A stretch of DNA of 34,664 bases from a virus. Made by a program: the position numbers and the translations under genes. The stretch lies in IMG/VR virus record IMGVR_UViG_3300035183_000745, positions 1 to 34,664 of that record; one strand, 5' to 3'. Shown piece after piece: positions 4,627-33,307 of this stretch. The notes beneath the pieces are model-generated. The model had not been told where the DNA came from. It saw only the letters and a program-made list of their open reading frames with translations, and ran no database searches. How positions within the stretch are numbered: position 1 is the stretch's first letter; each line of letters opens with the position of its first letter.

Positions 4627-4627
4627 A

Positions 4628-6175: not shown

Positions 6176-6184
6176 CTTGTATAC

Positions 6185-8263
6185 CTACACTAACAGCAGT
6201 GGGGCCAGAGAGCCTAGAGTGCCTAGAGCCGACCCTCCTAATTGGCCAAGAAGCTTCGCGCCTTCTTCCCCAAGTTTAAAACCAAAACTGGGGTTTTCCC
6301 GCATTTCTTCTTTGTGGTAATTAAAAGCCCCTACTTGACCCATAAGGGTTAGTTGTTTGGTCATGACATCAAACAAGGTGGCTCTTGCCGCATCGGACCG
6401 GGCCAAGCCCACCTCACCAGTACGCACCAATGAGTCGAACAAATTGCGTTGCGATTTAATGTCCTCGATCATGCCCCCGAAGATGGTGTTTGCCATATTC
6501 GTAGCGGCATTCATGGTGCTTGTGGCGGCGCCCATTTGTTCACGGTAAATGCCCAAGTTGTATTCGTCTGCGGCGGCTGCCGCTCTCTGGCCCACTTCGG
6601 CAAATCCCACAGCTGCTTGTTGCCGTGCTGCGTATGTCTGGGCGAGGAATCCAGCTTCCGTGCTGAACAGTGAGGCGTTGTAGCTATCGATGCCCTGCTT
6701 TGCCTGGCGCATAATGTCTGTCATACCCATCATTGTCTGGTTGTATTTGGCGATGGAGTCGGCGGTAATGCCATACGTTTGCAAATCTCGGGTCCACCCA
6801 TTTTCAACGGCGCGCTCAATGTAGTCAGCCATCGTGAATACGCGGTTGCGCATGTCAAGGACTTCTTGTTGGGACATTTGCACACGGGCGGCGGTGGCCG
6901 CAGACGAAGCGGTCCGTGATTCGCTAAGCAGGCGGGCAGCCACGTCCCCGTCGAACTGTGCAAGCTGCGCTTGTGCAACTGGGTGGGACGGGTTTATGCC
7001 GCTGAGGGCGAGCGAATCCATCAGTCGGCCACGATCCTGCTTCGCCACACGCTCCGTCTCAAATCGCTGAGGCTCATAGAGACTTTGGTACATGGATTCG
7101 CTGAGCGCTCTCATGGGCGCACTGTTGAATGTGCGTTCCAGTGCGCCAGGCCCCATGTACTCTTCCATTCCTTTTTGCACAAAGGGGGAAAACTGCTTTA
7201 CAAAAGATTCTTCGTAATTTGGTGCGTTCGGAATGTCCCGCAGCTCTGGCGTCTGAAACCCCGTCAGGGCGCTTGGACCCGGACGGTTCAACGCCGGAAT
7301 GGCCTCTGGACCGCCCATACCGCCCCCAGCAAGACCGGCTGAGAGGCTGGCTGGGGGAGGAGCCACACCGCTATGAAATCCGGTGGTGAACCCTTGGGCC
7401 ATTTGCAGTGCATCGGTCGGTGACATGCCCTGGAATGGTCCCTTAAAATACTGCGCGCCCAACGCGGACACATCCATTGTCGGCGGCAGTCCTGTCGTCG
7501 TGTCGAAGGCTCCAGGACCCATACGCATGATGGCGTCAAGGTGGCGTTGCCCCGCAACGGGTTGTCCGTACACATACGTTTGGCCTGTCTTCGGGTCGGT
7601 AATAAGTTGTGCCGTACCGGGCGCAGCCTCGGCCCATTGCTGTGTCTGGGGGTTCCAGCGGTATCCGGGCAGTTTCTTTTGCATTTCGGGTGAAAGCTCG
7701 GCGGGCGGTTGCGGCCCTGTACCGGCCTTCTTTTTCCCGGCTCCCCATGTGGCGTCAAACTGCTTGCGCGCCTGTTCCTCCATCTCTAACTGCGCTTCCG
7801 CATAGCCGCGCGCCCCTTCAGCGACGCCCCCAGAACGACCACTTAATTTCGCCGCGCGACGCGCCTTGTCCCACTGGTCCATTGTAAACTCGTTACCAAG
7901 GCCACCAGCACTGAGAATACGCGGGATATCTTGCTTCTTTTGTGGGTCGTGGGAATCGTAGTATTGAATAATGTCTTCAACGGTAAAAAGCGGCTGCCCT
8001 CCTTCGCCCTTTTTCCGTGGCGGGGCAATCAGCCCCGCTTCCACAGGATTTATATCGGCATAAATGCCCACAGGTGAAGATGACGTGGATGATATGCCGT
8101 AGGGACCAGTACCCTGCAACCCGCCCAAAATTCCGGCAATTCCACCCAAAGAGAGCGGCCCAAACCCGGCCCGCATCGCCGAATTCACAAAAAAGGGATT
8201 GAAGACGGTGCCTTGCAGGTCCATGTTTGAGGATTTTTTGCCACCACCAAATTGCATGCCCAT
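6185..8263 (-). CDS. Large internal virion / DNA-ejection-type protein, 692 aa
   Basis: No catalytic motif is seen. The N-terminal third is Gly/Pro-rich with low complexity, including GGIAGILGGL. The section around residues 350-650 is helical and Ala/Gln/Met-rich with long coiled-coil-like stretches. The C terminus ends in a hydrophobic Gly/Leu helix (LLGQLGGSALGTLGSLAPLL), which could insert in a membrane. This resembles virion proteins that leave the capsid with the DNA (P22 gp7/gp16/gp20 and T7 gp14/gp15 classes), although I cannot show homology. The ATG at 8263 has a good AAGGAG nine bases upstream. It begins a run of three large genes with almost no spacing. Tail hub or fibre-adaptor roles are possible alternatives. 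Confidence 0.55.
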   Translation of the reverse strand: MGMQFGGGKKSSNMDLQGTVFNPFFVNSAMRAGFGPLSLGGIAGILGGLQGTGPYGISSTSSSPVGIYADINPVEAGLIAPPRKKGEGGQPLFTVEDIIQYYDSHDPQKKQDIPRILSAGGLGNEFTMDQWDKARRAAKLSGRSGGVAEGARGYAEAQLEMEEQARKQFDATWGAGKKKAGTGPQPPAELSPEMQKKLPGYRWNPQTQQWAEAAPGTAQLITDPKTGQTYVYGQPVAGQRHLDAIMRMGPGAFDTTTGLPPTMDVSALGAQYFKGPFQGMSPTDALQMAQGFTTGFHSGVAPPPASLSAGLAGGGMGGPEAIPALNRPGPSALTGFQTPELRDIPNAPNYEESFVKQFSPFVQKGMEEYMGPGALERTFNSAPMRALSESMYQSLYEPQRFETERVAKQDRGRLMDSLALSGINPSHPVAQAQLAQFDGDVAARLLSESRTASSAATAARVQMSQQEVLDMRNRVFTMADYIERAVENGWTRDLQTYGITADSIAKYNQTMMGMTDIMRQAKQGIDSYNASLFSTEAGFLAQTYAARQQAAVGFAEVGQRAAAAADEYNLGIYREQMGAATSTMNAATNMANTIFGGMIEDIKSQRNLFDSLVRTGEVGLARSDAARATLFDVMTKQLTLMGQVGAFNYHKEEMRENPSFGFKLGEEGAKLLGQLGGSALGTLGSLAPLLLV

Positions 8264-8277
8264 AGCCTGATGCTCCT

Positions 8278-8757
8278 TTACCCGTCCTTACGGCCTATGG
8301 CGTTCACCTTAAAACTAAATACATGGCCCACTACTTTTGCCGCAGGAAATACGCGCTGCGCGAGGCGCTCAACACTGCGTTGTTGTTTGGGGTTAAAAAT
8401 GGTGGTGGTGACCTCATCGTACTGCTCTTCTTGCGCCCAAGTACGCACGGCCAAAAGCAAGGCGTCACGCACCGCATGCTCATGCGTGGGGTTATACAGC
8501 ATGGCCAATTGGGGTAGGGGGTATACATCCACACCACGCACCACTAGTGCGTAGCCTTTGGGCAGCCCCCGCTGGAAACAACCGAATGTGACGGCATCGC
8601 CCGTCGCCAAGCCCTCAAGCATGACACGGACCAGACCGTGTGCTGTAAACACCGGATGGTTTTTTACGCTGTCGTGCACCATATCTTGGAATATGGGGGC
8701 TAACAGGCCCGCAGGATTATTTATTGGAAAGGTTTCGTAGTTGTTCACGAACTTCAC
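8278..8757 (-). CDS. GNAT-like small virion-associated protein (candidate), 159 aa
   Basis: The pattern of a GNAT-like alpha/beta fold is suggested by a central strand region around residues 70-85 (LVVRGVDVYPLPQLAMLY) followed by a helix with AVRDALLLAVRTWAQ and a later strand pair ending VVGHVFSFKV. The classic acetyl-CoA P-loop (Q/RxxGxG/A) is not visible, so it may be structural rather than catalytic. Podoviruses often carry a small protein of this kind just before the large internal virion genes; T7 gp13 holds the same place. The start is a GTG at 8757 overlapping the preceding gene by 41 bp, with AGGTG just upstream. The next in-frame ATG at 8682 has no ribosome site and would cut the N terminus. 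An unrelated conserved phage protein remains possible. Confidence 0.4.
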   Translation of the reverse strand: MKFVNNYETFPINNPAGLLAPIFQDMVHDSVKNHPVFTAHGLVRVMLEGLATGDAVTFGCFQRGLPKGYALVVRGVDVYPLPQLAMLYNPTHEHAVRDALLLAVRTWAQEEQYDEVTTTIFNPKQQRSVERLAQRVFPAAKVVGHVFSFKVNAIGRKDG

Positions 8758-8959
8758 TCAACACCTGAATGAGCGCCTTTGTTGTTGCGTCCACCGCTCT
8801 GAGGGCCTCAACAACCTGTTCATTGAGCGTCTGCCGTGAGTGTTCCATCGCGGTAAAGCATCGGTCAACTATGGGTTTGACCACTACAGACAGCACAAGG
8901 GCGCTGAAACCGGCGCCCCCCATTGCTGCAATTTCTGGCGGAATCGTAAATCCTTCCAT
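8717..8959 (-). CDS. Small membrane-anchored coiled-coil protein, holin-like, 80 aa
   Basis: Residues about 14-30 form one hydrophobic helix (GFSALVLSVVVKPIV), preceded by a short N-terminal tail. Residues about 38-78 are a charged amphipathic helix with coiled-coil spacing. One transmembrane helix with a coil in about 80 residues is seen in some holins and in other small phage membrane proteins. The ATG at 8959 lies one base after the stop of the Gly/Pro-rich gene; a longer in-frame reading upstream overlaps that gene completely and is rejected. The 3' end overlaps the GTG start of the next gene. No endolysin adjoins it, so a lysis role is only a suggestion. Confidence 0.5.
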   Translation of the reverse strand: MEGFTIPPEIAAMGGAGFSALVLSVVVKPIVDRCFTAMEHSRQTLNEQVVEALRAVDATTKALIQVLSEVREQLRNLSNK

Positions 8960-8960
8960 C

Positions 8961-10289
8961 TTACCGCACCCTGGCCGGCCTTCGGCCGCCTCCCCCGCCC
9001 GGTGCAGCCCGCCTGCGGGGCTGTCTGCCGCCCCCGCCAAATGCAGATGGATTTTCCCTGAAAGCACCACCACCGCCACCAAAGGCGGGTGGATTTGTAG
9101 GAACGCCAATAGGAGCGAAAATGTTGCCCTGAAACGCAGAACCATAAGCGCCAATTGGATATGGTTCACCCGACGGGTGTGTAGGGATTTCATATTTGCC
9201 GAGGGGCACACCGCCAACTACACCAGGGCCATATTTGCCTCCAGGTCCTGTGGGCATACCACCACCGACACCATCATAGCCATAGCCCCCGCCTCCAGAC
9301 CCGATTGGAAAGCCACGATTGTCTACCCGCAGGGGTAGCGTCGCAACAGGACCATAGGCGCCAGTGGGATAGGGAGGCTCACCAGGTGTGGGCATGGTGG
9401 TTCCATACTTGCCTCCAAGCCCTGCCTGCATATCACGGAGCATTTGATCTGCCAGGTGATGGCTGCCCGCAGTAAATCCGGGGTCTGGGCCAAAACGGGT
9501 ATCGGGACCGGGGAGTGTTCCTGATCCACCAGGCACGGCAGCTCCGAAATAGTCGCTTCCAGGCCCCCCGATGTAACCATTGCCTCCACCGCCCTGGGGT
9601 CCTGTCGGCATACCGCCACCCGCACCGCCTCCACCGGAGTTGTACTTGCCAGGGGGTCTTGCTGGAAAGCCGCCGGGCGCACCGCCGCCTGGATCATCTA
9701 CCGCCATACCCCCAACGTTACCATTACTACCTGGGGGCATTGGCAGATTAAAATCACCCGGACGTAAACGATACATTTGGTCCCTTACACCATAGAGGTT
9801 AGGGGGTTCCCCCGGTGTGGGCATAGTGGTTCCATATTTGCCTCCAGGTTCCGTTGGCATACCGCCACCCGCACTGCCCCCACCATAACCATATCGGCCT
9901 CTGGGGCCTGTTGGGAAGCCACCACCACCGCCTACCCTGTCGTCAAAACCAACAGGACCTATATTTGGGTACTGGTTATCGTCAGTGGGATTCCACCTGG
10001 CAGCACCACCATAGGAGCCAACAGGATCCTCTTGGGTTCCATACCACCTGATCCCACTGCCACCACCACCGTAGCCGAATCTGTCTATGGGATAGGGAGG
10101 CTCACCAGGTGTGGGCATGGTGGTTCCATACATGGGCATGATATTTCCGTAGGGGCTTTGCGGTGTGAAGGGTCCTTTGATACTCGCGGGCGGAGCACTG
10201 GGATTGCCGGGCGGACTTTGCACAACTCCGCCAACCGGACGGCTTCTTTGCGCCATATCGAGGGGCCTTTGGGGATACATTGCTGCCAT
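8961..10289 (-). CDS. Gly/Pro-rich low-complexity protein with repeated PTPGEPP motifs, 442 aa
   Basis: The protein is almost wholly Gly, Pro, Tyr and small residues. A motif YGTTMPTPGEPP occurs three times, joined to GGKYG or PYP, and shorter GGGMPTGP/GGGMPTEP blocks recur at least four times. There is no Gly-X-Y collagen register. The last 25 residues are Arg/Gly-rich (RQPRRRAAP, GRRPARVR), which could bind nucleic acid or an acidic partner. The gene starts with a TAATG overlap on the upstream gene and is followed one base later by the membrane-protein gene. Its DNA carries 44-bp exact direct repeats. It is probably disordered or fibrous: a tail, spike linker or capsid-surface component by context, with no identified function. 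Confidence 0.6.
   Translation of the reverse strand: MAAMYPQRPLDMAQRSRPVGGVVQSPPGNPSAPPASIKGPFTPQSPYGNIMPMYGTTMPTPGEPPYPIDRFGYGGGGSGIRWYGTQEDPVGSYGGAARWNPTDDNQYPNIGPVGFDDRVGGGGGFPTGPRGRYGYGGGSAGGGMPTEPGGKYGTTMPTPGEPPNLYGVRDQMYRLRPGDFNLPMPPGSNGNVGGMAVDDPGGGAPGGFPARPPGKYNSGGGGAGGGMPTGPQGGGGNGYIGGPGSDYFGAAVPGGSGTLPGPDTRFGPDPGFTAGSHHLADQMLRDMQAGLGGKYGTTMPTPGEPPYPTGAYGPVATLPLRVDNRGFPIGSGGGGYGYDGVGGGMPTGPGGKYGPGVVGGVPLGKYEIPTHPSGEPYPIGAYGSAFQGNIFAPIGVPTNPPAFGGGGGAFRENPSAFGGGGRQPRRRAAPGGGGGRRPARVR
9365..9408. repeat. 44-bp direct repeat, copy A, inside the Gly/Pro-rich gene
   Basis: This block on the plus strand is identical to 10088..10131. It encodes the YGTTMPTPGEPPYP motif. A third, diverged copy lies at about 9805-9837. 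Confidence 0.85.
10088..10131. repeat. 44-bp direct repeat, copy B, inside the Gly/Pro-rich gene
   Basis: Exact second copy of the 9365..9408 block, 723 bp away. The spacing is a multiple of three, so recombination between copies would delete 241 codons in frame. Confidence 0.85.
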
Positions 10290-10558
10290 TAGTTATCTTC
10301 CTCCATATCGTATTCCATATCATGCTCCGTATCGGAGCCGGTATACAACGGACCGTGCTCTCGCAACTCTTCTTGAAGGTCTCGCACCAGAATACGCCGT
10401 GTACTCCACTCCCGTTCCTGAGACCATACAGCGTCCTCACGGTCCTGCACCTGCCGGATATTATTGCGAAGGCTGGTCGGTGTGTCCCCTTGCTCAAAAT
10501 CGCCAAAACGAGAAAACATCGAGACGAACACGCCTGTAGCCTTTTTGTTTTTACGCAT
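10289..10558 (-). CDS. Small charged protein with acidic tail, 89 aa
   Basis: Not recognised. A basic N terminus (MRKNKK) and a helical Arg/Glu-rich middle lead to a strongly acidic end rich in Asp, Glu and Met (HDMEYDMEEDN). The ATG at 10558 is preferred; an upstream TTG-initiated reading would run through the promoter-like sequence at 10586-10615. A weak AGGGA lies about 11 bases before the ATG. The stop overlaps the start of the Gly/Pro-rich gene as TAATG, which suggests coupled translation. The acidic tail might pair with the basic C terminus of that neighbour, but this is speculation. Confidence 0.55.
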   Translation of the reverse strand: MRKNKKATGVFVSMFSRFGDFEQGDTPTSLRNNIRQVQDREDAVWSQEREWSTRRILVRDLQEELREHGPLYTGSDTEHDMEYDMEEDN

Positions 10559-10585
10559 TATATATGCACTATTCCCTTCGGTACT

Positions 10586-10615
10586 ATTGTACCATACATA
10601 CTGGCGACTGGGCAA
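10586..10615 (-). promoter_or_regulatory. Candidate sigma70-type promoter before the 89-aa gene
   Basis: On the minus strand, TTGCCC (10615..10610) is followed after 18 bases by an extended -10, TG-G-TACAAT (TACAAT at 10591..10586). The -10 lies within a 5-bp-arm inverted repeat, GGTAC-aata-GTACC, at 10580..10593, which might be an operator. Confidence 0.4.
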
Positions 10616-10618
10616 GCC

Positions 10619-10993
10619 CTACGCGACATTTTTGGCCAAGGCGAAAAAGGCAAAATCTACGATGTGCGTGAACTGCCGTGCGACGGCAGCCGCGTCGTTC
10701 CAGCGAATCACAAAAATGGCCGTATGCACGTACACGTCCAACGGTGCAGGCCGAGGACTGCGTACACTGATGGTGTCGTTCTTTGACAATTTCCAGGTCA
10801 GCGTCGTTCCCGCAATGGTAACGCCGTTCGCGTTCAGGACATTTTGGGCGTTCCGGTTGTTGACGATTGCGCCTGTAAGTTCATCGAAGACTGTCAGTTC
10901 AGCGGCTGTTATGGGCTGGCTGTCTGTGTTCAGCGTGGCCACGAACTCTCCGGTCGTACCCTCATTAATGGGTTGAAATCGTACCCTGCCCAT
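10619..10993 (-). CDS. Small beta-rich virion-type protein, 124 aa
   Basis: No named family recognised. The protein is beta-strand rich with an immunoglobulin-like alternation (GEFVATLNTDSQPITAAELT, TIAGTTLTWKLSKNDTISV, HTAIFVIRWNDAAA). The phrasing of a short domain with a default/assigned value and a TWKL strand is common in small tail or fibre accessory proteins of environmental phages. The ATG at 10993 lies 12 bases after the previous stop, with an AAGG about ten bases upstream. It is the last of four neighbouring small or medium beta-rich genes read before the candidate promoter at 10.6 kb. Confidence 0.6.
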   Translation of the reverse strand: MGRVRFQPINEGTTGEFVATLNTDSQPITAAELTVFDELTGAIVNNRNAQNVLNANGVTIAGTTLTWKLSKNDTISVRSPRPAPLDVYVHTAIFVIRWNDAAAVARQFTHIVDFAFFALAKNVA

Positions 10994-11005
10994 AATCCAC
11001 GCGCC

Positions 11006-11443
11006 TTATGCAAGGGTGAAAACATTTCCGGCTGAACCAACAGCGGCATTGTTAAACTTAATGTCAAAGGAATCCCCGTCCGTAAGGGTCAATGCCGAAC
11101 CCCGGTCCCACCAGGCAATGAGCGGCCTGAGGGGGCTTGTTGGCGTGTCGTTAAACAGCACGACAAATTGGAACGGACCAATGCTCCCCCCCGAAGCAGT
11201 GATGCGGAGGGAGACGCCCTGAAGGGTGCCGGTGCCACTCGTTTCCGACCATGTTGGTGTGATGGATGTGCCGCCGGCTGTATAGCCATTGCCGCCGGCA
11301 ATTTCGGCAATATCCGTCTTTACCGTATCGGTTACAAGGGGTTGTTCGTTGCTAAGGTATATTTTTATGGCGTGGGCGGAGAAATTATGCACTCCCCGGC
11401 CCAACTGATCTACAAAGTCCTGAAATTTATTATATGCGGCCAT
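11006..11443 (-). CDS. Small conserved-type virion protein, 145 aa
   Basis: The N terminus is a short helix (YNKFQDFVDQLGRGVHNF) followed by beta-strands and Gly/Thr/Ser-rich loops. The segment GPFQFVVLFNDTPTSPLRPL and the ending LTLTDGDSFDIKF give the look of a small phage structural protein found in many uncultured podovirus genomes. That comparison rests on recollection of such proteins and has not been tested. The ATG has AAGGA nine bases upstream. It probably decorates the tail or a fibre; no direct functional residue is visible. Confidence 0.6.
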   Translation of the reverse strand: MAAYNKFQDFVDQLGRGVHNFSAHAIKIYLSNEQPLVTDTVKTDIAEIAGGNGYTAGGTSITPTWSETSGTGTLQGVSLRITASGGSIGPFQFVVLFNDTPTSPLRPLIAWWDRGSALTLTDGDSFDIKFNNAAVGSAGNVFTLA

Positions 11444-11459
11444 GCGTATATGTCCTTTC

Positions 11460-12290
11460 TTATTGCGGTTCCACCACGAATTGCTCGTCGGTTAGGTATG
11501 CAGTGGTGAACGACGGAGCAGATACGCGGATGGGGGTCACAAACTGTTCCGCAGTCACACGCGCCGGCGTCGCTACTGACTCTCCGCTGAGAAAGCCAAA
11601 TGTAAATGTGCTGGTAATGATAAAAAGGATGTCCTCGACTTCTGAAACAAAAAACGCCGGGAGTCCCAGTATCGTGTAGTCGCCGGGAAGGGCCTTTAAC
11701 GTCGCAGCGTACAGTGTTTGCGCCGCAGCCCCGGTAAGAAGAAGGGTGCCCGATGAAGCCACAAGAGGATACAAAACATTAAGGAATGCGGCAATGCCCG
11801 TATACAAGTACGTTCCGGGACTCGCCACAATTACGGAAGAGGCCACAAAGGTCGCGGCAACTCCGGTGGTGCTATATGCTCCCGGACTGGCCAAAAGAGT
11901 GCGAAATAGAGCCAAGGTTGCATTTGCACCGGCGACCGTGTAGGCCCCAGGGGTGCACGGCAGCAGAAGAGCCGATGGCAGGCCCGCAACGACGCCTGTG
12001 ACACCATACGCTCCAGTCGAGCACGTCAGTGTCGGTACAAAGGCTAACCCGGCATTGGAGCCTGCAAGGGTATAACTACCAGAGCTGCACGACAATGTGG
12101 GCGCAAACGCCAGCCCGGCAGCCACGCCAGAAAGAGCATAGCTTCCAGGGTTGCAATCTAAGGTGGTGACATTGGTAGCTCTCGTCCACAACATCGAGAG
12201 CTTTTTTCGCCCCCGAACGCCAGGCACACTACGGTGCAGTGTTCGGGGCCAACCGCCAAGTCTGTAATAAGAAAGGGGTCCGTAGAACAC
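11460..12290 (-). CDS. Tandem-repeat fibre-like protein, eight 22-residue repeats, 276 aa
   Basis: Residues 46-220 consist of eight consecutive 22-residue units with consensus (C/A)xPGxYxxxGxxAxLxxxxxLx. The first four units begin with Cys and the later ones with Ala. The Gly-x-Tyr turn and Gly-x-x-Ala turn are kept in almost all. A regular 22-residue period suggests a beta-solenoid, beta-roll or beta-prism rod. A basic 30-residue N terminus and a C-terminal beta region of about 55 residues flank the array. The start is a GTG sharing one base with the upstream TAG stop, behind a GGGAG five bases away. It is likely a tail fibre, spike shaft or decoration protein by type and context. Confidence 0.65.
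   Translation of the reverse strand: MFYGPLSYYRLGGWPRTLHRSVPGVRGRKKLSMLWTRATNVTTLDCNPGSYALSGVAAGLAFAPTLSCSSGSYTLAGSNAGLAFVPTLTCSTGAYGVTGVVAGLPSALLLPCTPGAYTVAGANATLALFRTLLASPGAYSTTGVAATFVASSVIVASPGTYLYTGIAAFLNVLYPLVASSGTLLLTGAAAQTLYAATLKALPGDYTILGLPAFFVSEVEDILFIITSTFTFGFLSGESVATPARVTAEQFVTPIRVSAPSFTTAYLTDEQFVVEPQ
11631..12155 (-). repeat. Array of eight 66-bp coding repeats (22 aa each)
   Basis: The repeat units are nearly constant in length: seven of 22 codons and a last one of 21. They are conserved at protein level around the PGxY and Gly-xx-Ala positions. DNA identity between units is modest, so the array looks old or under diversifying change. Confidence 0.75.
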
Positions 12291-12745
12291 TATAACTCCC
12301 GGAACGTGACCGACACAACGCAGTTGAAGGATGTAGGGGCGTCAAGAAGCCGAATACCAGCGGATGCTCCGGGCGCAATGTATTTACGGGTTTCCGGAAT
12401 TCCACCATGATCCCACCCACCCAATGATGGAAATCCTTTGTGGCCAATCTCGGTATTCGCTGTATATGTTGGCTCACTTGCGGTCACGTTGGCTTTCACT
12501 GTCGAAGCTGCCGCACTTGACGCTGCTTCATGTTTTGCGGGAGTAAGGGGCGTGGCGGTTGGCGTTCCCAATGTGGTAATGTCCTGCCAGGTACAACGTA
12601 ATTGTTCGTTGGTTTCAGTGTCAGCATTGGTCACTGACGCCTCTAGAATCTCCACAACTTGAGTTGCCGGTGCAGTGATGTACAGCAATGTTCGTGCTGA
12701 ATTGCAGCCTGTAATGAGATAGGATGCCGTGTAAACTCCACGCAC
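12290..12745 (-). CDS. Small virion-type protein, 151 aa
   Basis: Beta-rich, with a short Thr/Ala-rich centre (TPLTPAKHEAASSAAAS) and a Gly-rich C-terminal part (FPSLGGWDHGGIPE, APGASAGIRLLD) ending in a strand (NCVVSVTFREL). I recognise this overall type from small structural genes of environmental phages, without a formal family name. The GTG start at 12745 follows the upstream TAA by one base and has GGAGG ten bases before it. Its TAG stop shares a base with the next GTG. It may be a head-fibre or tail accessory protein. Confidence 0.6.
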   Translation of the reverse strand: MRGVYTASYLITGCNSARTLLYITAPATQVVEILEASVTNADTETNEQLRCTWQDITTLGTPTATPLTPAKHEAASSAAASTVKANVTASEPTYTANTEIGHKGFPSLGGWDHGGIPETRKYIAPGASAGIRLLDAPTSFNCVVSVTFREL

Positions 12746-12746
12746 T

Positions 12747-14516
12747 TTAGACGTACCTCCGAGGTCGATTTACAACAACGGCAGATAGGGGAATTGTCGT
12801 TGTCCAGTTGTTGCTCGTAGTCACAGTACCACGAAACGTAAAAATCTGTTGGCCCAAGGAACTATCAATATCTGTGGGGTCTGCGTAGCCCAAATCCTGT
12901 GTAGCGCCAAGTTTGAGCGTTATAATCGCCTTCGTTCCCGGCGTGGAAGCTTTAATGAGCTGACGAATTGTCGAGGTGGCCCCCACATTCTCAAATCTCC
13001 CTGTAATGTTATATGTTTGGGAACTGGCAAACGTATGAGTCCGAGTAATCCCCAAAGCCGTATTGGTCAGTGTACCCACTGTGAACCCGCTCCCAGCGAA
13101 TGTCGCTGCACCGTTGGGCAGGGTGAGCGTCCCCGCCGTAAAAGCGTTGGTAATTGTCACCGTCACCCCCGCCCCCACCGTGATGTTATTCCATGTCATA
13201 TTGGCCGACGGCGTATTGAGCGTACAATTTGCGGTGAGGTTGAGGGTGGACCCCGTGGTAGTAATAGTACCAGACACGTAGGTCAATGTGTTGGTGCCAT
13301 AGTTTACCGTGCCGCTGATCGTAACATTACCCGCAAGATCGCAATTGTTATTTAGCGTTCCCGCACCAGCTGACCATGTCCCCCCCGTGAGGATAATCTT
13401 GGTGCTGCCATTCAAAGTCGTAGTTGTGGTGAGTCCGCCCGTGCGCCATGTCACTCCTCCAGAGGAGAACATACTTGAACTGTTGGTTTGAAATGTTGAC
13501 GTGTTTGTAATAACCACACTACGGGGCAGCGTAATACTGCCCGCTCCCGTTTTGAGGAATGAGTCTGCCGTAATGTCAAACGCGCCCGACCACGTAAACG
13601 ACGTAGATGAGGTTGAGGTCCACAATCCGGACGCTGTGATATTTCCAGACAGCGTTATGCCCTGCGTCGCACCGGACGTAGTTAATGCCCCCGTGGCTAT
13701 GTTGAACGCTCCAGAAAAGATCGCATTGGCCGAAATGGTTAAGGTGCCGGTGAGGTTGAGTTGGCTGGATAATGTGTATGTGGAAGATCCCGACAGTGTG
13801 ATGTTCGCCCAATTCATACCAGAGGTGTTAAACGTCGTTGCGGCAGAGCAGGTCAATGTGGATGTGCCTGCGGATATGGTGCCTGATGTGTATGTGAGCG
13901 TGCCCGTGTTGTAGTTAAGGGTTCCCGACAGGGTAATTGTCGCTGCGCCAGCGTTAAATGTAAGATTGTTCTGGAGTGTACTAGTGCCAGACCATGTTCC
14001 CGTAGACTCCAACGAAAAGACTGTAGTGCCCGAAGTATCCGTTGTGACACTGAGTCCGCCCCTGGCTTTTATGGTCTGCCCATTCACCGTAGCAGGGTTT
14101 GTTCCAAATAGCGTTACAAGCCCTTCGACCGTCCAGTTATCCGCCAAGGTGTAGGTTTGGCCGCCTTTCAGTTGGAGTCCGCCTGTGAGCGTTTTGCCAC
14201 CAGACGTAAGTGTGGCGGCTGTATCCACAATTAAATCGCCGGTTCCCGCGATTGTCATTTCGGGCACAAATGTCACAGTGCCGGTGGTCCCATCGCCGAC
14301 TGTTAAGTTGTTGTTGAATGTCAGTGTGCCGGTGTAGTTCGTCATGATGAAACTTGCAAGGCCCGTTCCACCGGACGCCACGTTAATGGTCAGATTTCCT
14401 GATGTACCATCTGACCGTGCAACAACGGCATCACCAGCACCGGGTACAATGCCCTCATCCCACGTAGACGTGGCGTTAAAATTGCCTCCCGCTGCTGAAA
14501 TGGTCCGTGTCGCCAT
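12747..14516 (-). CDS. Thr/Ser/Gly-rich beta-helix-like fibre or adhesin, 589 aa
   Basis: The protein is a long series of short strands with Thr, Ser, Asn and Gly turns and very few charged residues, typical of right-handed parallel beta-helix fibres. A block at about residues 171-262 recurs at about 378-466: both have GTWS, then LNYNTGTLTY or VNYGTNTLTY, then SGTI, then MNWANIT or MTWNNIT. A distinct C-terminal part from about 500 (RFENVGATSTIRQLIKAS) carries more charge and may be a cap or receptor-binding tip. The ATG at 14516 directly follows the TAA of the upstream gene. It is probably a host-recognition fibre or spike; no lyase or hydrolase residues can be assigned. Confidence 0.65.
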   Translation of the reverse strand: MATRTISAAGGNFNATSTWDEGIVPGAGDAVVARSDGTSGNLTINVASGGTGLASFIMTNYTGTLTFNNNLTVGDGTTGTVTFVPEMTIAGTGDLIVDTAATLTSGGKTLTGGLQLKGGQTYTLADNWTVEGLVTLFGTNPATVNGQTIKARGGLSVTTDTSGTTVFSLESTGTWSGTSTLQNNLTFNAGAATITLSGTLNYNTGTLTYTSGTISAGTSTLTCSAATTFNTSGMNWANITLSGSSTYTLSSQLNLTGTLTISANAIFSGAFNIATGALTTSGATQGITLSGNITASGLWTSTSSTSFTWSGAFDITADSFLKTGAGSITLPRSVVITNTSTFQTNSSSMFSSGGVTWRTGGLTTTTTLNGSTKIILTGGTWSAGAGTLNNNCDLAGNVTISGTVNYGTNTLTYVSGTITTTGSTLNLTANCTLNTPSANMTWNNITVGAGVTVTITNAFTAGTLTLPNGAATFAGSGFTVGTLTNTALGITRTHTFASSQTYNITGRFENVGATSTIRQLIKASTPGTKAIITLKLGATQDLGYADPTDIDSSLGQQIFTFRGTVTTSNNWTTTIPLSAVVVNRPRRYV

Positions 14517-14843
14517 TTAGCTACCTGGAATCTCTTGCGCCTGTGCAGACGCAATAAGCAATTCCGCCTCCCGATCGCTGATGCCAGTATCAGTAAGCTC
14601 CACGTCCATTCCGACAGAAAGAACTTTTAGAATTTGTACCCCAACGACACTGGCTCGGAATTTTGCAAGTTCTGATTCGCTACGCTTCCGAATGTTTTGA
14701 AGGATGTCACTCCCAGATTGTGGCTGAAAATGGGGAATGTCCACAGTCCACACATCCACCCCATTGACAGCGTAAGTAACTTTTGTTGTTACGGTGTCTG
14801 CTGTTCTTGTCGCTTCTACAATACGGTACGTTAAGGTGGACAT
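14517..14843 (-). CDS. Small protein, 108 aa, function unknown
   Basis: Not recognised. The first half is beta-rich (LTYRIVEATRTADTVTTKV, VNGVDVWTVDIP) and the second half helical and charged (DILQNIRKRSESELAKFRAS, DREAELLIASAQAQE). The ATG has a GAGG five bases upstream, and the TAA abuts the ATG of the fibre gene. The close coupling suggests a fibre-associated structural protein or chaperone-like partner, but nothing in the residues proves this. Confidence 0.55.
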   Translation of the reverse strand: MSTLTYRIVEATRTADTVTTKVTYAVNGVDVWTVDIPHFQPQSGSDILQNIRKRSESELAKFRASVVGVQILKVLSVGMDVELTDTGISDREAELLIASAQAQEIPGS

Positions 14844-14888
14844 ATTAACCTCGTGTATGTGCGGGAAGCGCCAATTGGTGGAAAGGCC

Positions 14889-14907
14889 GAAAGGGCGCTA
14901 AGCGCCC
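14889..14907 (-). terminator. Weak hairpin terminator after the lipoprotein gene
   Basis: A GC-rich perfect stem (GGGCGCT/AGCGCCC, 14893-14907) lies ten bases past the lipoprotein gene stop. On the minus strand it is followed by TTTCGGCCTTTCC, a broken rather than continuous T tract, so efficiency may be low. Confidence 0.4.
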
Positions 14908-14916
14908 CTCCAACAC

Positions 14917-15174
14917 CTACTGGGCCTTGGCCAGGCAGGCATCAAAAAATTTTTCAAGGGCGATATGTTCTGCTTCCATAGCGGCTCGCACTCTCACGTC
15001 CTGCACGATTGCACGCACCTCAGAGTAGTGCCGCTCGTGGTCCGCCTTGAGTGCCCTGCACCCTTCCTGTTTTTGGGCGTGCGCTTCCGGCGTGACAAGC
15101 CACGCGCTTGTTGCCGAACACCCACTCAACAGGACAAAAAGAAATAATGAGCATAACAATATTGTCGTTTTCAT
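14917..15174 (-). CDS. Small lipoprotein, 85 aa
   Basis: The N terminus is a type II signal peptide: MKTT, a hydrophobic core ILLCSLFLFVLL, then lipobox LSGC with the lipidated Cys at residue 19. The mature part is about 66 residues, Ala/Glu/His-rich and helical, with a second and third Cys. The ATG at 15174 is chosen because it puts the signal peptide at the N terminus and has GGAG nine bases upstream; longer in-frame readings add an unlikely leader. Candidates are an outer-membrane spanin (Rz1 type) or a superinfection/exclusion lipoprotein. It lacks the Pro-rich body of many Rz1 proteins and I find no inner-membrane spanin partner beside it. Confidence 0.6.
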   Translation of the reverse strand: MKTTILLCSLFLFVLLSGCSATSAWLVTPEAHAQKQEGCRALKADHERHYSEVRAIVQDVRVRAAMEAEHIALEKFFDACLAKAQ

Positions 15175-15238
15175 GTGTAGTTTCTCCATTTCAATTAGCA
15201 GCGGCAATATGAACGTTTCTGAATCCATTACGAAACGA

Positions 15239-15586
15239 CTATACCTGCTGCAACTCTAAATCGGCGTTGATAGTGCCGCTGGTGTAAGATGTTACACGGG
15301 CTTTGACCCATCGGGCAGGCAATACGCCGTTCAAATTTACCATGCCGTTAGACGATATGGACGTTCCGGCATTGACACCGTTGTCTGTTGCTAATGGTTT
15401 TGTGGGGCTATTTGAGATAGACACCTGGACTGTCGCTGTAGTAATGCCGCTCACATGCACGGAACCCGCCGTAAACCCCCGCGCTTCAACCCATTCGCCG
15501 TTGCCCGCAGCAACAGCGTTCGTAATTAACTGCACGGACATGTTCATTCGATCAAATACTTTAAGATATACCGGCGTTAAGGGCAT
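15239..15586 (-). CDS. Small beta-rich structural protein, 115 aa
   Basis: Residues about 15-110 alternate beta strands and Gly/Ser turns (GEWVEARGFTAGSVHVSGIT, VQVSISNSPTKPL, RWVKARVTSYTSGTINADLE), like a single jelly-roll or Ig-like domain. Small domains of this pattern are common as head-fibre, capsid-decoration or tail accessory proteins; which one it is cannot be told. The ATG at 15586 has AGGGGG seven bases upstream. Confidence 0.55.
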   Translation of the reverse strand: MPLTPVYLKVFDRMNMSVQLITNAVAAGNGEWVEARGFTAGSVHVSGITTATVQVSISNSPTKPLATDNGVNAGTSISSNGMVNLNGVLPARWVKARVTSYTSGTINADLELQQV

Positions 15587-15600
15587 TGCTTAACCCCCTT

Positions 15601-15801
15601 TTAGTCGTCGCTATCTTGGCTCATACTTGACTTATCGGCTTTTGCTTTGGGTAGCATTTTTGTTTCGGAGCCGCTCTGGGACTCACCGTCTTTCGACGTG
15701 CGCCCGGAAGTGCCCGAACCTTGATAGCCGGAATCGATGGTGTATGTCTCGTGCATGGCTTTGCTGTTTCCCCCGCCCTTTTTATCGTACATTTTCGGCA
15801 T
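15601..15801 (-). CDS. Disordered Ser/Gly/Lys-rich small protein, 66 aa
   Basis: Composition is Lys, Gly, Ser and Asp with almost no hydrophobic residues (KKGGGNSKAM, SQSGSETKMLPKAKADKSSM), so the chain is likely disordered. The ATG at 15801 is preferred because an AAAGGA lies ten bases upstream. An in-frame ATG at 15843 would start two bases after the previous stop and add 14 residues. Function unknown; its place among fibre genes suggests a small virion or assembly factor. Confidence 0.5.
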   Translation of the reverse strand: MPKMYDKKGGGNSKAMHETYTIDSGYQGSGTSGRTSKDGESQSGSETKMLPKAKADKSSMSQDSDD

Positions 15802-15844
15802 ATTGCTTCCATCCTTTCTTGAAAAATAAGATTGTATTACCATA

Positions 15845-16315
15845 TCACTTTTCGTGAGGGTACACAACGTCCTCGGCCACTTTTTTTTCTTCTGCCTGCT
15901 GGCGCGCCGCCACGAGTGCGCGCCGTTGCGCCCCCGGCGCTGTCCGGGGCGGTCCGGGGAGGTGTTTCAGCACTTCGGCAAAAAAAGGTTCGCATGTGGG
16001 ACACCGATGGTCCATATACGGAACCTCCGGCTGCTCTGGACAGGCGCACCAGCTGTAGGCCGGAAGATTTTGAAACCACCGTACCCGCTCAAGGACGGGC
16101 AATCCATCCGAATCGACAGCGCCCGTATACCGGGCAACGCACATACCACCGGTTTTGATGACGCCATCGAGGTCTTGGTGATGGCGACACACATGCGTCT
16201 CTGCACAGTGTTCACACGCCACATCACAACAAGAGCACCAGCATGAACTTACATCATGCACCGCATGGTCCCCAGAAAAACAATGTACAGTAGAACCGTC
16301 AAACACTAAAAGCAT
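15845..16315 (-). CDS. Cys/His-rich putative zinc-binding protein, 156 aa
   Basis: Thirteen cysteines lie in the first 108 residues. A dense cluster runs from residue 25 to 46 (CWCSCC, then CEHC, then CRHH). A second group gives CAC at 90-92 and CPTC at 105-108, a zinc-ribbon-like pair. The last 40 residues are Ala/Arg/Glu-rich and helical. This suggests two zinc sites and a helical tail. No named domain fits. The ATG at 16315 has a strong purine-rich site (GGAAGGA) five bases upstream. It stands just after the long fibre gene, with a promoter-like sequence before it, so it may be separately controlled. Possible roles are a virion metal-stabilised protein or a host-directed zinc protein. Confidence 0.6.
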   Translation of the reverse strand: MLLVFDGSTVHCFSGDHAVHDVSSCWCSCCDVACEHCAETHVCRHHQDLDGVIKTGGMCVARYTGAVDSDGLPVLERVRWFQNLPAYSWCACPEQPEVPYMDHRCPTCEPFFAEVLKHLPGPPRTAPGAQRRALVAARQQAEEKKVAEDVVYPHEK

Positions 16316-24125: not shown

Positions 24126-24163
24126 CAAATAAAATGGGGTGGTGACTATATGCCACCACCCCA
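24126..24163 (-). terminator. Rho-independent terminator after the capsid genes
   Basis: A 10-bp perfect stem (TGGGGTGGTG and CACCACCCCA, 24135-24144 and 24154-24163) with a nine-base loop is followed on the minus strand by TTTTATTT. This is the clearest terminator in the window and falls between the minor head gene and the following gene. Confidence 0.75.
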
Positions 24164-24199
24164 CAACTATAGCACACTCACAGGGAAGGTGCGAGTGGC

Positions 24200-25712: not shown

Positions 25713-25742
25713 ACAATATCACTCACTGTGTGTGATTGTCAA
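25713..25742 (-). promoter_or_regulatory. Candidate promoter for the major capsid gene
   Basis: On the minus strand TTGACA (25742..25737) and TATTGT (25718..25713) are 18 bases apart: a perfect -35 and a four-of-six -10. The 100-base leader carries a weak 5-bp hairpin with GGAGG in its loop (25675-25690). The ribosome site near the capsid start is only moderate (AGAGG, 11 bases away). Confidence 0.5.
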
Positions 25743-28977: not shown

Positions 28978-29205
28978 CTAGTTCTCCTCAGAAAGCCCTT
29001 CGGATGCTTGTTGCAAAACTTGCAGATCCTCCACAAACAGCCGCAACACCAAAAGGAACGCCTGGGGCTGCGTTAAGCCCTCCATAGCCGCTTCCTCCAA
29101 GTGCAGGGCCGATGCATGCAACCACTCTAACAAGAGTTTTTGCGCCTTCGTGAGCGTTACACCTGGACTTTGCCGTTTTTTCATGACATGTTTTGCCGTA
29201 CTCAT
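28978..29205 (-). CDS. Small helical protein between TerL and portal, 75 aa
   Basis: A basic N terminus (STAKHVMKKRQSPGVTLTKA) and two helices (KLLLEWLHASALHLEEAA, FLLVLRLFVEDLQVLQQASE). ATG overlaps the TerL stop as ATGA. No domain recognised. Small proteins at this place may assist packaging or head assembly. Confidence 0.55.
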   Translation of the reverse strand: MSTAKHVMKKRQSPGVTLTKAQKLLLEWLHASALHLEEAAMEGLTQPQAFLLVLRLFVEDLQVLQQASEGLSEEN

Positions 29206-30641
29206 AAACGTAACAACCTCGCGTCTTTGGGAATTCGCGCCCCCGGATATGTCTGAGGACCACCACCTGGACCGCCAACCACATGAACTCCAGACACCAC
29301 TCCGGCACTGGGAATTACCAGTTTTTTCCCACTATACCCCATTTTACCGATGCGGTCCAGCGGATACAGCCGAGCAACAAGATAGGCCAACGCATCAGCC
29401 GGATGGCTATGCTCATCTTTCACAATGCCCCCAATGGTATTGCCGTTTACGCGCCTATGCCAGCCGCCCCGCAAAGCGTGCCAAATGGCCCGCGCCTGGT
29501 GTTTATCCACCTTGAGGAGGTCATGCCTACGCAACACCGCCCGAAGGGATTCAATGCGGGTATACTCATCCCGTGGCCCCGCTTGGTAGAAACCGCCCAA
29601 CTGTTGCACCACGGACAGAGCAGCGGATCGTTTGCGGCTGGATTGATCCGGAATGCTCCCCGTAGGATCACCCACCCAGATGAGTCTGTGCCTCCGCACA
29701 TCGAATTGGTCAATCAGCACAGACCGCAGCGTTTCATCCACATACTCTTCAATGCCGAGGCCTTCCCCTACGCCGCACCACAACACATGGAGTTTGCCCA
29801 GTGGCGTTTTTTGGCAAATAACTGCCGCCGGATTATGCCAAAAATCCAATCCAATGTGGTACGGAATTCCCGGCATGGGCTGCAAATGGTCCACCAAATG
29901 CACTGCATCATTCCATTCGGGCGTCACCGCCTTGCCAATTTGCGTGAACCCGAACTGCCCCTTCACCAATCGCCGTAGCAAATCGGGGCGATGCTTGTAT
30001 CGGCGTTCCAGCGCCTCATAATACCCGACAGGCAAATTCTTCTCATTCTCCCGCCCATCCGTTTGGTAATAGCCCCAACCCGGTTCGCCCGGATCAACAA
30101 AGCGGTTATACAAATAATGGGATTCGTCCGGTGGGTTTGCGGCCAATTTCACCTGGTGCCATTTCATACCAGGCGCACTAATACGGCCCATTGCAAAGTC
30201 AAATACATCCTCGGCAATGCCCCCCTGGTCAATGCCAGGCGCCGCTTCGTCAATAAGAATGAGACCCGCCTCCAAGGATTGCAGCTTGCCCACATCCTTG
30301 CTGTCATCCAAGCCGAGGAACGTTATAGTGCCCTCAAGCCCCTCCATACCCCAAACAAACTCGCGGGACTCAGCCCGCCACGTACCGCAAATGCCCGGTG
30401 GAAATATGCGAAAAAACGTTTTCAGCGTTGTCCGTTGCAAGTTCGTCCACGTATCACGGATAATAACAATGGGAGCGCCGGGGTTCAGCCTCGTATACAC
30501 GTATGCGCTCCAGCACAAGCCCACCGTTTTGCCCGCACGCATTGTTCCACAGAAGAGCACGGCCTCACGACGGTCCAGCACAAACGCTTGTTGTGTGGGT
30601 GTTGGCTCAAAAACAATGCGGTGGACATGCTCACTGCCCAT
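29202..30641 (-). CDS. terL: Terminase large subunit (TerL), 479 aa
   Basis: Walker A is G32-TMRA-GKT39. Walker B is LILID131 with catalytic Glu132. A coupling motif follows near 167-171 (AANPP). The C-terminal RNase H-fold nuclease shows Asp266 (HIGLDFW), Asp325 (WVGDPTG) and Asp416 (HSHPADALAY), the expected metal-binding triad. The protein uses ATP to pump DNA into the prohead through the portal and cuts the DNA. It starts with TAATG overlapping the upstream gene. The nearly minimal length (479 aa) fits a podovirus-type terminase. Confidence 0.95.
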   Translation of the reverse strand: MGSEHVHRIVFEPTPTQQAFVLDRREAVLFCGTMRAGKTVGLCWSAYVYTRLNPGAPIVIIRDTWTNLQRTTLKTFFRIFPPGICGTWRAESREFVWGMEGLEGTITFLGLDDSKDVGKLQSLEAGLILIDEAAPGIDQGGIAEDVFDFAMGRISAPGMKWHQVKLAANPPDESHYLYNRFVDPGEPGWGYYQTDGRENEKNLPVGYYEALERRYKHRPDLLRRLVKGQFGFTQIGKAVTPEWNDAVHLVDHLQPMPGIPYHIGLDFWHNPAAVICQKTPLGKLHVLWCGVGEGLGIEEYVDETLRSVLIDQFDVRRHRLIWVGDPTGSIPDQSSRKRSAALSVVQQLGGFYQAGPRDEYTRIESLRAVLRRHDLLKVDKHQARAIWHALRGGWHRRVNGNTIGGIVKDEHSHPADALAYLVARLYPLDRIGKMGYSGKKLVIPSAGVVSGVHVVGGPGGGPQTYPGARIPKDARLLRL

Positions 30642-31092: not shown

Positions 31093-31656
31093 TTACGCAT
31101 CTTCTGAGTCATCCGGTGGAACTTCAACAAGCACCTCAAGCGCACCCTGAGCAAGCGCTTGCTCCGTCTGCTCCAAGGCCGCAGCCAGCGGGCTAATAAT
31201 TTGCACCGCCACAGTGGGTTTCTCTCCCCGTTCAGGATAATGGCCTTTAATCTCCGCCATAGCCTTCACCGCGCCAAGCTGCGTCGTATTATCCGTAAAT
31301 GCATCCCACTCCTTCGTTTCCGGATTCCACCGCACTGTAGAGGCATCCATCAAAGCCTTAAACTTTGCGGCAATAAACTGATCGGTTAATCCCGCGTTCT
31401 GAAGAATGTCCAAAAATTTCTGCCGTAATGCACCGCGTGACAATTTGTTCCGCAAGTTGGCGGGCGACATATTCGCTGTTGCCGCCGCCTGCACCACCGA
31501 CGCGCCTTGGGCGAGGGCACCTAACGCTCGACGGTCTTGTAATGTCACGCTTTTTGTGACAATGGGCGGTTTCTGCGGCGGCAATTTTGGCAGCAGGCTT
31601 TTAGAACCTTTTGGTCGTCCCGGTTTTCGGGCTGCGGTGGGCTGCTTTTGAGGCAT
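31093..31656 (-). CDS. Terminase small subunit candidate with AT-hook, 187 aa
   Basis: An AT-hook (GRPKGSK, residues 13-19) sits in a basic Pro-rich N-terminal tail. A helix-turn-helix-like stretch follows at about 44-82 (ALAQGASVVQAAATANMSPA, then NLRNKLSRGALRQKFLDIL). The C-terminal part carries a further helix and an acidic end. DNA binding next to TerL is what a small terminase does: it recognises the packaging site and recruits TerL. The gene lies directly before an unknown gene and TerL. Two bases separate the RHH stop from its ATG. Confidence 0.7.
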   Translation of the reverse strand: MPQKQPTAARKPGRPKGSKSLLPKLPPQKPPIVTKSVTLQDRRALGALAQGASVVQAAATANMSPANLRNKLSRGALRQKFLDILQNAGLTDQFIAAKFKALMDASTVRWNPETKEWDAFTDNTTQLGAVKAMAEIKGHYPERGEKPTVAVQIISPLAAALEQTEQALAQGALEVLVEVPPDDSEDA

Positions 31657-31658
31657 GG

Positions 31659-31871
31659 TTATTGGTGTGTCCTATGCAAAGAGGCCCAGTCCAACGCGGC
31701 TTTGCCCACCGGCTCCCGTTCCACCCAGGTAGAATCACCGCACAAATCTTGCCGAATCCAATTATTGATGGCAAAACGCAACACAGTATTTGTCGTTGTT
31801 GCAAGGGCCTTCGCCATATGTTGGACCCACGCCCGTTCTTCATCGGACAGGGCTATTGTTACACGCCGCAT
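31659..31871 (-). CDS. Ribbon-helix-helix transcriptional regulator, 70 aa
   Basis: The pattern matches a CopG/Arc-type ribbon-helix-helix: an N-terminal strand MRRVTIALS, then helix A (DEERAWVQHMAKAL), then TTTNTVLRFAINNWIRQDL as helix B with the conserved small residues. Such proteins bind DNA as dimers with the strands in the major groove of inverted repeats. The ATG at 31871 has no ribosome site, and a predicted transcription start from the -10 at 31879-31884 lies only one or two bases before it, so the mRNA may be leaderless. In-frame readings extending further (TTG at 31907) run over the promoter. It stands beside an 11-bp palindrome in the divergent promoter. Confidence 0.65.
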   Translation of the reverse strand: MRRVTIALSDEERAWVQHMAKALATTTNTVLRFAINNWIRQDLCGDSTWVEREPVGKAALDWASLHRTHQ

Positions 31872-31878
31872 GCCATGA

Positions 31879-31907
31879 AGTATAACACACCGACCCCGGC
31901 TTGACAA
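31879..31907 (-). promoter_or_regulatory. Minus-strand promoter for the RHH gene
   Basis: TTGTCA (31907..31902) and TATACT (31884..31879) are 17 bases apart, five of six consensus bases in each. The start would fall at about 31872, right at the RHH start codon. Confidence 0.6.
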
Positions 31908-31909
31908 GC
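31899..31909. promoter_or_regulatory. 11-bp palindrome over both -35 boxes (candidate operator)
   Basis: GCTTG-A-CAAGC is a perfect inverted repeat with one central base. It covers the -35 boxes of both divergent promoters, so one bound dimer could block both. The neighbouring RHH regulator is the natural candidate to bind it. Confidence 0.45.
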
Positions 31910-31929
31910 ACAGTAGAAATGCCTATAAT
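31901..31929 (+). promoter_or_regulatory. Perfect consensus plus-strand promoter
   Basis: TTGACA (31901..31906), 17 bases, TATAAT (31924..31929): an exact sigma70 consensus with ideal spacing. It points against every gene in the window, toward 32-34.6 kb. The transcript would start at about 31936 and contain the hairpin at 31958-31987. No plus-strand gene with a ribosome site is seen after it. Confidence 0.75.
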
Positions 31930-31951
31930 AAGGTCGTCATTTGTCCTCCTT
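31923..31951 (-). other. Strong ribosome site with a 5-codon mini-ORF before the RHH gene
   Basis: The minus strand has AAGGAGG (31951..31945), four bases, then ATG (31940) and MTTLL followed by TAG (31925..31923). It is in frame with the RHH gene. It may be a leader peptide or a relic of an earlier start. TAG is used as a normal stop elsewhere in this window. Confidence 0.4.
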
Positions 31952-31957
31952 CCCAAA

Positions 31958-31987
31958 GCCTGCGGGGATGCCTCCTGCCCCGCAGGC
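31958..31987. other. GC-rich perfect hairpin in the control region
   Basis: Arms GCCTGCGGGG (31958-31967) and CCCCGCAGGC (31978-31987) with a ten-base loop form a 10-bp stem. It has no T tract on either strand, so it is not a standard terminator. It lies seven bases before the mini-ORF ribosome site (minus) and near the 5' end of the plus-strand transcript. Confidence 0.6.
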
Positions 31988-32046: not shown

Positions 32047-32283
32047 CTAGCGCCCCCAGACTATGTAGTATGGTGATTCTTGGGTCTCCGACGGTTTGGG
32101 CGCGAACGCCTCTTCTGGTAATCCCTGAATTAGGGAGTCTCTGGAGTGCGCCAAAAACTTTTCCAACGGAATAGGCGGGGCCGCATGGTGCCCCCACGCA
32201 TCGATGGTGGGATTCCACACATACCCGCATGCCTCTAGTATATCCTGCTTCGACTCATATTGCCCTAATGCTGTTTTATTCAT
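32047..32283 (-). CDS. Small protein of unknown function, 78 aa
   Basis: Unrecognised. It has an N-terminal helix (YESKQDILEACGYVW), a Trp/Asn/His-rich turn (NPTIDAWGHHAAPPIPLEKF) and a polar end. The ATG at 32283 has AGGAG seven bases upstream; an in-frame ATG six codons earlier lacks it. The gene starts inside the end of the ATPase gene, so it is translationally linked to it. Confidence 0.6.
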   Translation of the reverse strand: MNKTALGQYESKQDILEACGYVWNPTIDAWGHHAAPPIPLEKFLAHSRDSLIQGLPEEAFAPKPSETQESPYYIVWGR

Positions 32284-33307
32284 TTTGCACTCCTGTTCCA
32301 AGGGTGTAAAAATCCCCCTGCTTGATTAGCACACCAGCCTTTACAGCCTCCCCTAAACGGTTGCGTGTCGTGGTGATATTAACCCACCCCGCAGCCTGTG
32401 CAATTTGGTCCCGTGTCAGTGAGAGGCTGTGGGCGTCACGAAATGCCTGGATGATTTTTCCAAAAGATTTCCGAATTGTTCTGGCCTTGTGTAATTCTCG
32501 CACCTCCTCTGGCAGTTCCTCGTACCAGCGCCACCCGCCCGGACCCACTGAAAAGTACAGAGGTTGCGCCCGCACGCCCAAATTGGTCTTGATAAGCTCC
32601 AGGGAGCTATACACTGTTTGTTCCACTGCTATTTGCGACTTGATGGCGATGACGGAACGCGCCCGCGCCGTGAAGCCTACGGACCCCGCACCCCTATACT
32701 GGTCCGGCGTTTCCACCCCCTTCGTCCAATGCCGCACAAGGACAATGGCGGCGTGCGTATCCTTCGCCACTTTGGCAAGACCGCTGAGGAGGGGACGCAC
32801 CTCCTCTTGCCTATAGGTGTCCGCACGATCCGGCCAAAAATCCATGACAGGATCAATTACCACCAGTGTAGCATCTACACGCTGGATGAGGCTTTTCAGC
32901 GTGTGTGTTTTGTCTATACACCACTGCCACCCCTCATCAGGGAGGAGCACTGCACGGTCCAAATCAGCATGAACCAACTCCAATCGGGCGCGAAGCCTTC
33001 TAGGGGGATCCTCCGTCCCCAGATAAATGGTGTTTTGTGGGGCCAAAGCGCGCTGTCCCGGAAGGGCCTGGCCGCTCGATAAAGCGCCCGCCACAGCCAG
33101 CATCAAAAAAGATTTCCCACTCCCCGGATTGCCCTCCACAATCGTCACCTCTTCCCTGGGTATGTATGGTGTCCATAACCACGGCTCAGGTTCGGGTATA
33201 ACATCAACGGCTCTCACCAAAGGTCCACTGTCGTCGATAGTTCGGGAGGGGCGTGAAGGTAATGCAATAGACGCTCCTCCCACCTTGGAAAAATCTATTC
33301 TAGGCAT
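32276..33307 (-). CDS. RecA-fold ATPase of RepA/AAA_25 type, DNA-replication role likely, 343 aa
   Basis: Walker A is G59-NPGSGKS66. Walker B is LVVIDP (about 148-153), with Asp152. A VRHW motif follows at about 191-194, and a later GSVGFTARARSVIAIK segment is typical of AAA_25/RepA-type (hexameric helicase-like) ATPases. The C terminus (about 270-340) reads as a winged-helix domain with QAAGWVNITTTRNRLGEAV, likely DNA binding. It may be a phage replicative helicase/loader or a RepA-like replication protein. The ATG overlaps the previous gene by 13 bp. No primase or polymerase is visible in this window. Confidence 0.75.
   Translation of the reverse strand: MPRIDFSKVGGASIALPSRPSRTIDDSGPLVRAVDVIPEPEPWLWTPYIPREEVTIVEGNPGSGKSFLMLAVAGALSSGQALPGQRALAPQNTIYLGTEDPPRRLRARLELVHADLDRAVLLPDEGWQWCIDKTHTLKSLIQRVDATLVVIDPVMDFWPDRADTYRQEEVRPLLSGLAKVAKDTHAAIVLVRHWTKGVETPDQYRGAGSVGFTARARSVIAIKSQIAVEQTVYSSLELIKTNLGVRAQPLYFSVGPGGWRWYEELPEEVRELHKARTIRKSFGKIIQAFRDAHSLSLTRDQIAQAAGWVNITTTRNRLGEAVKAGVLIKQGDFYTLGTGVQNE

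Follow-up and report, generated by a model that had tools for sequence, protein, structure and literature searches.

A conserved pair of back-to-back promoter sequences beside an RHH-like gene at the head of phage packaging genes, and its plausible autoregulation

The DNA analyzed here, a linear IMG/VR virus record, spans 34,664 bases and is referred to as the window; its main genes are carried by the minus strand. In a gap of ~175 nt between a small gene, which ends at 32047, and a 70-aa gene (31871-31662) there are two sigma70-type promoter sequences that point away from each other and use overlapping -35 boxes. The features of this region are:

29202 to 30641, minus strand: gene for the terminase large subunit (phrog_2, E = 1.5e-27), in the same gene run as the two genes that follow
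31093 to 31656, minus strand: gene for a 187-aa protein with a weak match to the terminase small subunit (TerS-like; phrog_4102, E = 0.047)
31662 to 31871, minus strand: gene for an RHH-like protein of 70 aa, which starts MRRVTIALSDEE; the first gene before the packaging genes
31879 to 31907, minus strand: sigma70-type promoter, TTGTCA (31907-31902), 17 nt, TATACT (31884-31879); 10/12 matches
31899 to 31909: 11-bp palindrome GCTTGACAAGC (GCTTG-A-CAAGC), with both -35 boxes within it; candidate RHH operator GCT-TGACA-AGC
31901 to 31929, plus strand: sigma70-type promoter, TTGACA (31901-31906), 17 nt, TATAAT (31924-31929); 12/12 matches, predicted start at ~31936
31936 to 31987, plus strand: predicted 5' part of the plus transcript, i.e., a conserved ATTTGTCCTCCTTCCC tract and then a 10-bp hairpin whose loop includes CCUCC
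31939 to 31951, minus strand: the same tract, AAGGAGGACAAAT, which is Shine-Dalgarno-like (SD-like) and is followed in the window by ATG ACG ACC TTA TTA TAG
32047 to 32283, minus strand: small gene, function not assigned, ATG with AGGAG; antisense to the plus transcript
32276 to 33307, minus strand: gene for an AAA_25/RecA-like ATPase (PF13481, E = 6.5e-25); antisense to the plus transcript if there is read-through

The packaging run is read on the minus strand in the order RHH-like, TerS-like, one further gene, large terminase and portal-like, where the TerS-like gene is found directly downstream of the RHH-like gene. With this gene order, the minus promoter leads the packaging run, while the plus promoter faces the ATPase side and is antisense to the genes located there. 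The phage belongs to a group without a close relative in the collection searched: blastn against 50,697 phage records recovered no relative of the window, tblastn with the RHH-like protein yielded zero matches in phages and a single weak, RelB-like match in plasmids (E = 0.05), and phage terminases related to that of the window share no more than 29% identity with it. Genome scans for relatives found none, and the Rfam and tRNA scans were empty. Scans of viral-contig proteins identified one relative only, an IMG/VR contig of 53,321 bp (IMGVR_UViG_3300035183_001064, referred to as G001).

Of the two promoters, the one on the plus strand is the stronger, and no site in the window scores higher. 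The -10 box of the minus promoter is preceded by TGT, i.e., it is an extended -10, and the predicted start is at 31872-31871. Back-to-back divergent promoters at 31879-31929 had been proposed in a first-pass annotation of this DNA, and their presence is confirmed in the sequence: when the whole window was dinucleotide-shuffled 150 times, neither a 12/12 site nor a divergent pair with overlapping -35 boxes and a summed score of at least 22/24 arose. Given the plus promoter, the probability of finding a minus-strand -10 box with at least 5/6 matches at a distance of 16-18 nt is ~0.009, and it is 0.00075 if this box also carries the TGn extension. From the letters alone we infer that both sites are active as promoters.

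The overlapping -35 boxes are found inside the palindrome. These two boxes are not independent because TTGACAA is self-symmetric, i.e., it is already a 7-bp palindrome, the reverse complement of which, TTGTCAA, matches a -35 box at 5 of 6 positions. The plus-strand -35 box therefore brings with it both the "sharing" of the -35 region and seven of the palindrome's 11 bases, and the extra symmetry is limited to the GC/GC flanks, which would be expected in about 1 case in 16. The palindrome is weaker evidence for an RHH switch than it first appears.

G001 and the window are largely collinear with ~83% DNA identity. The portal, terminase and ATPase proteins are 91-94% identical and the RHH-like protein is 84% identical, while 4-fold degenerate sites differ by 35-41%; the figure set against the conservation of the promoters is 36%. 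In G001 the plus promoter is kept at the same place with 11/12 matches (TACAAT); the minus promoter drops to 9/12 (TATGCT) with its TGn kept, and both spacers remain 17 nt long. A 17-nt block, TACTGTGCTTGTCAAGC, that includes the palindrome is identical in the two phages (P ~0.02 for 17 identical bases running within 130 neutral nt), and the spacer beside the plus-strand -10 box has changed freely. Conservation of palindrome and spacing in relatives had been suggested as a check, and both are kept in G001; because this is the only relative found, the conservation is that between two genomes.

A few other features of G001 were noted, of which the genes were recognized by eye. Replication-type genes are found on the other strand at 1-16000 and 50600-53321 (L006, L008), and this arm lies nearly entirely outside the window. 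It includes an apparent A-family DNA polymerase that is divided between two ORFs (13098-14771 and 15077-15952), which flank a small ORF, and, at 5165-6271, a gene of PD-(D/E)XK-like type. A TnpB-like transposon gene is found at 48400-49692 (L002 389-1681), just past the right end of the collinear region. In addition, the stretch from the upstream gene to the conserved hairpin in G001 (L002 4740-4870) holds an TGGTGTGGT-type tandem repeat, which is absent from the window.

The ATG of the RHH-like gene, at 31871, is found 7 nt past the minus-strand -10 box, i.e., at the predicted start of transcription. No Shine-Dalgarno sequence (SD) was found upstream of this ATG in the window or in G001, while most other genes of the window do have one; an alternative in-frame TTG start at 31907 in the window is likewise without an SD. 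Because both the 7-nt distance and the absence of an SD are conserved in G001, the leaderless start put forward in the first-pass annotation is well supported by the geometry at the predicted start, and the gene is taken as probably leaderless in the following.

The protein encoded by this gene (MRRVTIALSDEERAWVQHMAKALATTTNTVLRFAINNWIRQDL...) matches the RHH_1 family (PF01402) over all 39 positions in both the window and G001, with scores of 14.1-14.8 bits, which are below the curated cut-off of 20.5. The E-value is 0.035 in Pfam and, per record, 0.0014 (window, 14.8 bits) and 0.0034 (G001, 14.1 bits). An AlphaFold model of the monomer, of low confidence (pLDDT 61.6), places helices at 10-25 and 29-47, such that MRRVTIALSDEE is followed by two helices, with the N-terminal beta strand expected of an RHH protein not formed. 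A search of the PDB with this poor model matched no RHH fold, and a search of the PDB with the protein sequence was empty. With a score under the cut-off, the earlier designation as an RHH gene is sub-threshold, and "RHH-like" is a fair name. An antitoxin reading (RelB-like, E = 0.11) was set aside, as the neighbor gene is TerS-like rather than a recognized toxin gene.

On the plus strand, the ATTTGTCCTCCTTCCC tract, which is CCUCC-rich and resembles an anti-Shine-Dalgarno sequence, and the hairpin are kept in kind in G001, and beyond the hairpin the two phages diverge strongly. The hairpin folds better than shuffled sequences (z = -3.8 in the window and -3.3 in G001), has no U tract and is slightly more stable on the minus strand through G-U pairs. 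This predicted 5' region matches no other part of the window or G001 over more than 10 nt, and comparison of the two phages revealed no conserved open reading frame in the plus transcript. Of the opposing transcript proposed earlier, the promoter is conserved, while the RNA would be non-coding and antisense to the upstream genes. On the minus strand, a leader peptide MTTLL* after AAGGAGG is disfavored; the ATG that follows AAGGAGGACAAAT is ATA in G001, which argues against a conserved translation start at this position. The conservation of ATTTGTCCTCCTTCCC/AAGGAGGACAAAT may serve either strand.

Such back-to-back pairs recur in phages. An exact search for the 51-bp layout with an GCTTGNCAAGC center identified six contigs (L015, L045, L134-L137) in which a gp55-like late sigma gene lies downstream of it (match to phrog_234 with E = 1e-69 in one contig). 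These contigs are T4-like, AT-rich and unrelated to the window phage. The pair is conserved among them, with the 17/17 spacing and a GCTTGWCAAGC core, with one promoter co-directional with the downstream gene and one antisense to the preceding gene. The layout is the same as that of the window, but no RHH gene was recognized beside it in any of the six. This observation shows that the symmetry can exist for promoter reasons alone. Two other exact GCTTGACAAGCACAGTA matches (L131, L132) have a different arrangement. A search for ATTATA-16-TTGACAA-16-TATAAT found at least 120 contigs and its control with a reversed center found 1. A strong enrichment of shared -35 pairs in phages was considered from these numbers; the claim was dropped, as reversing the center abolishes the promoter as such and as the same loci contain 46 further perfect promoters at which a symmetric upstream -10 box is not in excess.

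Mnt and Arc of the P22 immunity I region are RHH proteins. In that region, these small repressors act in a regulatory island with a small antisense RNA (PMC2629481). The likeness of immunity I (mnt, arc, ant, sar) to the present locus is that of small RHH repressors near an antisense RNA, both of which are putative here. P22 is temperate and its repressors govern an antirepressor gene, whereas here the RHH-like gene leads packaging genes. No homologue of ant was noticed next to the locus, the neighbors of which are the TerS-like, terminase, small and AAA ATPase genes rather than mnt/arc-type genes that control ant, and no lysogeny genes were noticed in G001.

Among autorepressors, RA3 MobC represses its own promoter via a palindrome inside it (PMC4175270), and the AmrZ site GGC-AAAAC-GCC is composed of two half sites with a 5-bp linker, a length also found for Arc and CopG (PMC3325190). 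In MobC, AmrZ and CopG the palindrome overlaps the repressor's own promoter, as does the candidate site here: GCT-TGACA-AGC is an inverted repeat with 3-bp half sites 5 bp apart over the -35 box of the minus promoter, i.e., the geometry of RHH autoregulation. The binding of MobC, AmrZ and CopG has been measured and their sites are of other sequence, whereas the present site is a candidate and is common to two opposed promoters. In the bidirectional promoters described by Warman, Grainger and colleagues the -10 element is shared, starts are 7-25 bp apart and the output is often a non-coding antisense RNA (PMC10268837). The symmetry of an element permits both directions, as it would here. The present locus differs because it is the -35 region that is shared, the -10 boxes being non-overlapping and 39 bp apart, and because the predicted starts are ~65 bp apart, outside that range (PMC10268837, PMC12825309). 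Overall, the locus appears to be a conserved promoter pair of known kind, which is plausibly autoregulated.

The reading that we favor, with a probability of roughly 0.6, is that of a host-sigma70 promoter pair from which a leaderless packaging mRNA and an antisense RNA would be made in competing directions. In this tailed phage, the two promoters stand back to back in the gap that separates the replication side from the packaging side. The minus promoter would start a leaderless mRNA at the RHH-like ATG, continuing into the terminase and portal genes, and the plus promoter would start a short or long non-coding RNA, with a conserved first 50 nt, that runs antisense to the genes upstream. As one set of base pairs serves as both -35 boxes, the site would accommodate one RNA polymerase at a time, and we infer that the two directions compete for it.

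It is also plausible that the RHH-like protein recognizes GCT-TGACA-AGC and represses transcription either way, that of its own gene included; in our estimate this falls somewhat short of even odds. The first-pass annotation had proposed a two-way switch in which an RHH dimer governs its own gene and an opposing transcript. In the full form of this idea, a dimer of RHH dimers on the palindrome would shut both promoters and thereby time the packaging operon and the antisense RNA; this version is tentative and slightly less probable still. What stands of it is the operator geometry, with half sites and a linker as in the AmrZ autorepression site, Arc and CopG, together with an RHH-like gene that starts at the minus promoter and a palindrome identical in G001. 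Against it, the -35 box alone explains 7/11 bases, such that most of the palindrome simply follows from a consensus -35, the same palindrome and spacing are found in other phages beside which no RHH gene was recognized, the RHH call is sub-threshold, and no second site, i.e., no second perfect copy of the palindrome, is present elsewhere in the window or G001. Should the protein bind, the operator would coincide with both -35 boxes, which would make the locus a very compact phage switch and a clean system for testing how polymerases compete for a common -35 region; if it does not bind, the locus would still mark a conserved leaderless packaging start and a conserved antisense promoter.

Two further explanations concern the plus transcript. 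Only the minus promoter may be biologically relevant, with the plus promoter being a symmetric by-product whose spurious antisense RNA is quickly terminated or degraded. The main window genes are all on the minus strand and symmetric bacterial promoters commonly give non-coding antisense output (PMC10268837, PMC12825309), but a by-product is expected to be the weaker partner, and here the plus promoter is the best of the window, the stronger of the pair and retained at 11/12 in G001; we consider this explanation rather unlikely. More doubtful is that the plus promoter makes a regulatory sRNA of ~50-60 nt that pairs via CCUCC motifs with Shine-Dalgarno sequences. The ATTTGTCCTCCTTCCC tract and the CCTCC loop were kept while the flank towards the upstream gene changed completely, and the hairpin is better folded than shuffles, but lacking a U tract it offers no clear 3' end, the absence of longer matches elsewhere in either phage speaks against such pairing, and the tract may owe its conservation to an SD-like role on the minus strand. 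The combination of these ideas, where a single 11-bp site is both -35 boxes and an RHH operator that decides between leaderless packaging mRNA and an anti-Shine-Dalgarno sRNA, is distinctly improbable.

Elsewhere on the minus strand of the window, a second conserved and well-scoring promoter-like site, TTGACAATCACACACAGTGAGTGATATTGT, is found at 25742 (25713-25742), with 10-11/12 matches in G001. It is located upstream of a 308-aa gene (25599-24673), and its spacer holds an imperfect inverted repeat, TCACACACAGTGAGTGA. A strong intrinsic-terminator-like hairpin, composed of 13 pairs and then TTTTATTT, is found on the same strand at 24134-24164, ~500 nt past the 3' end of this gene.
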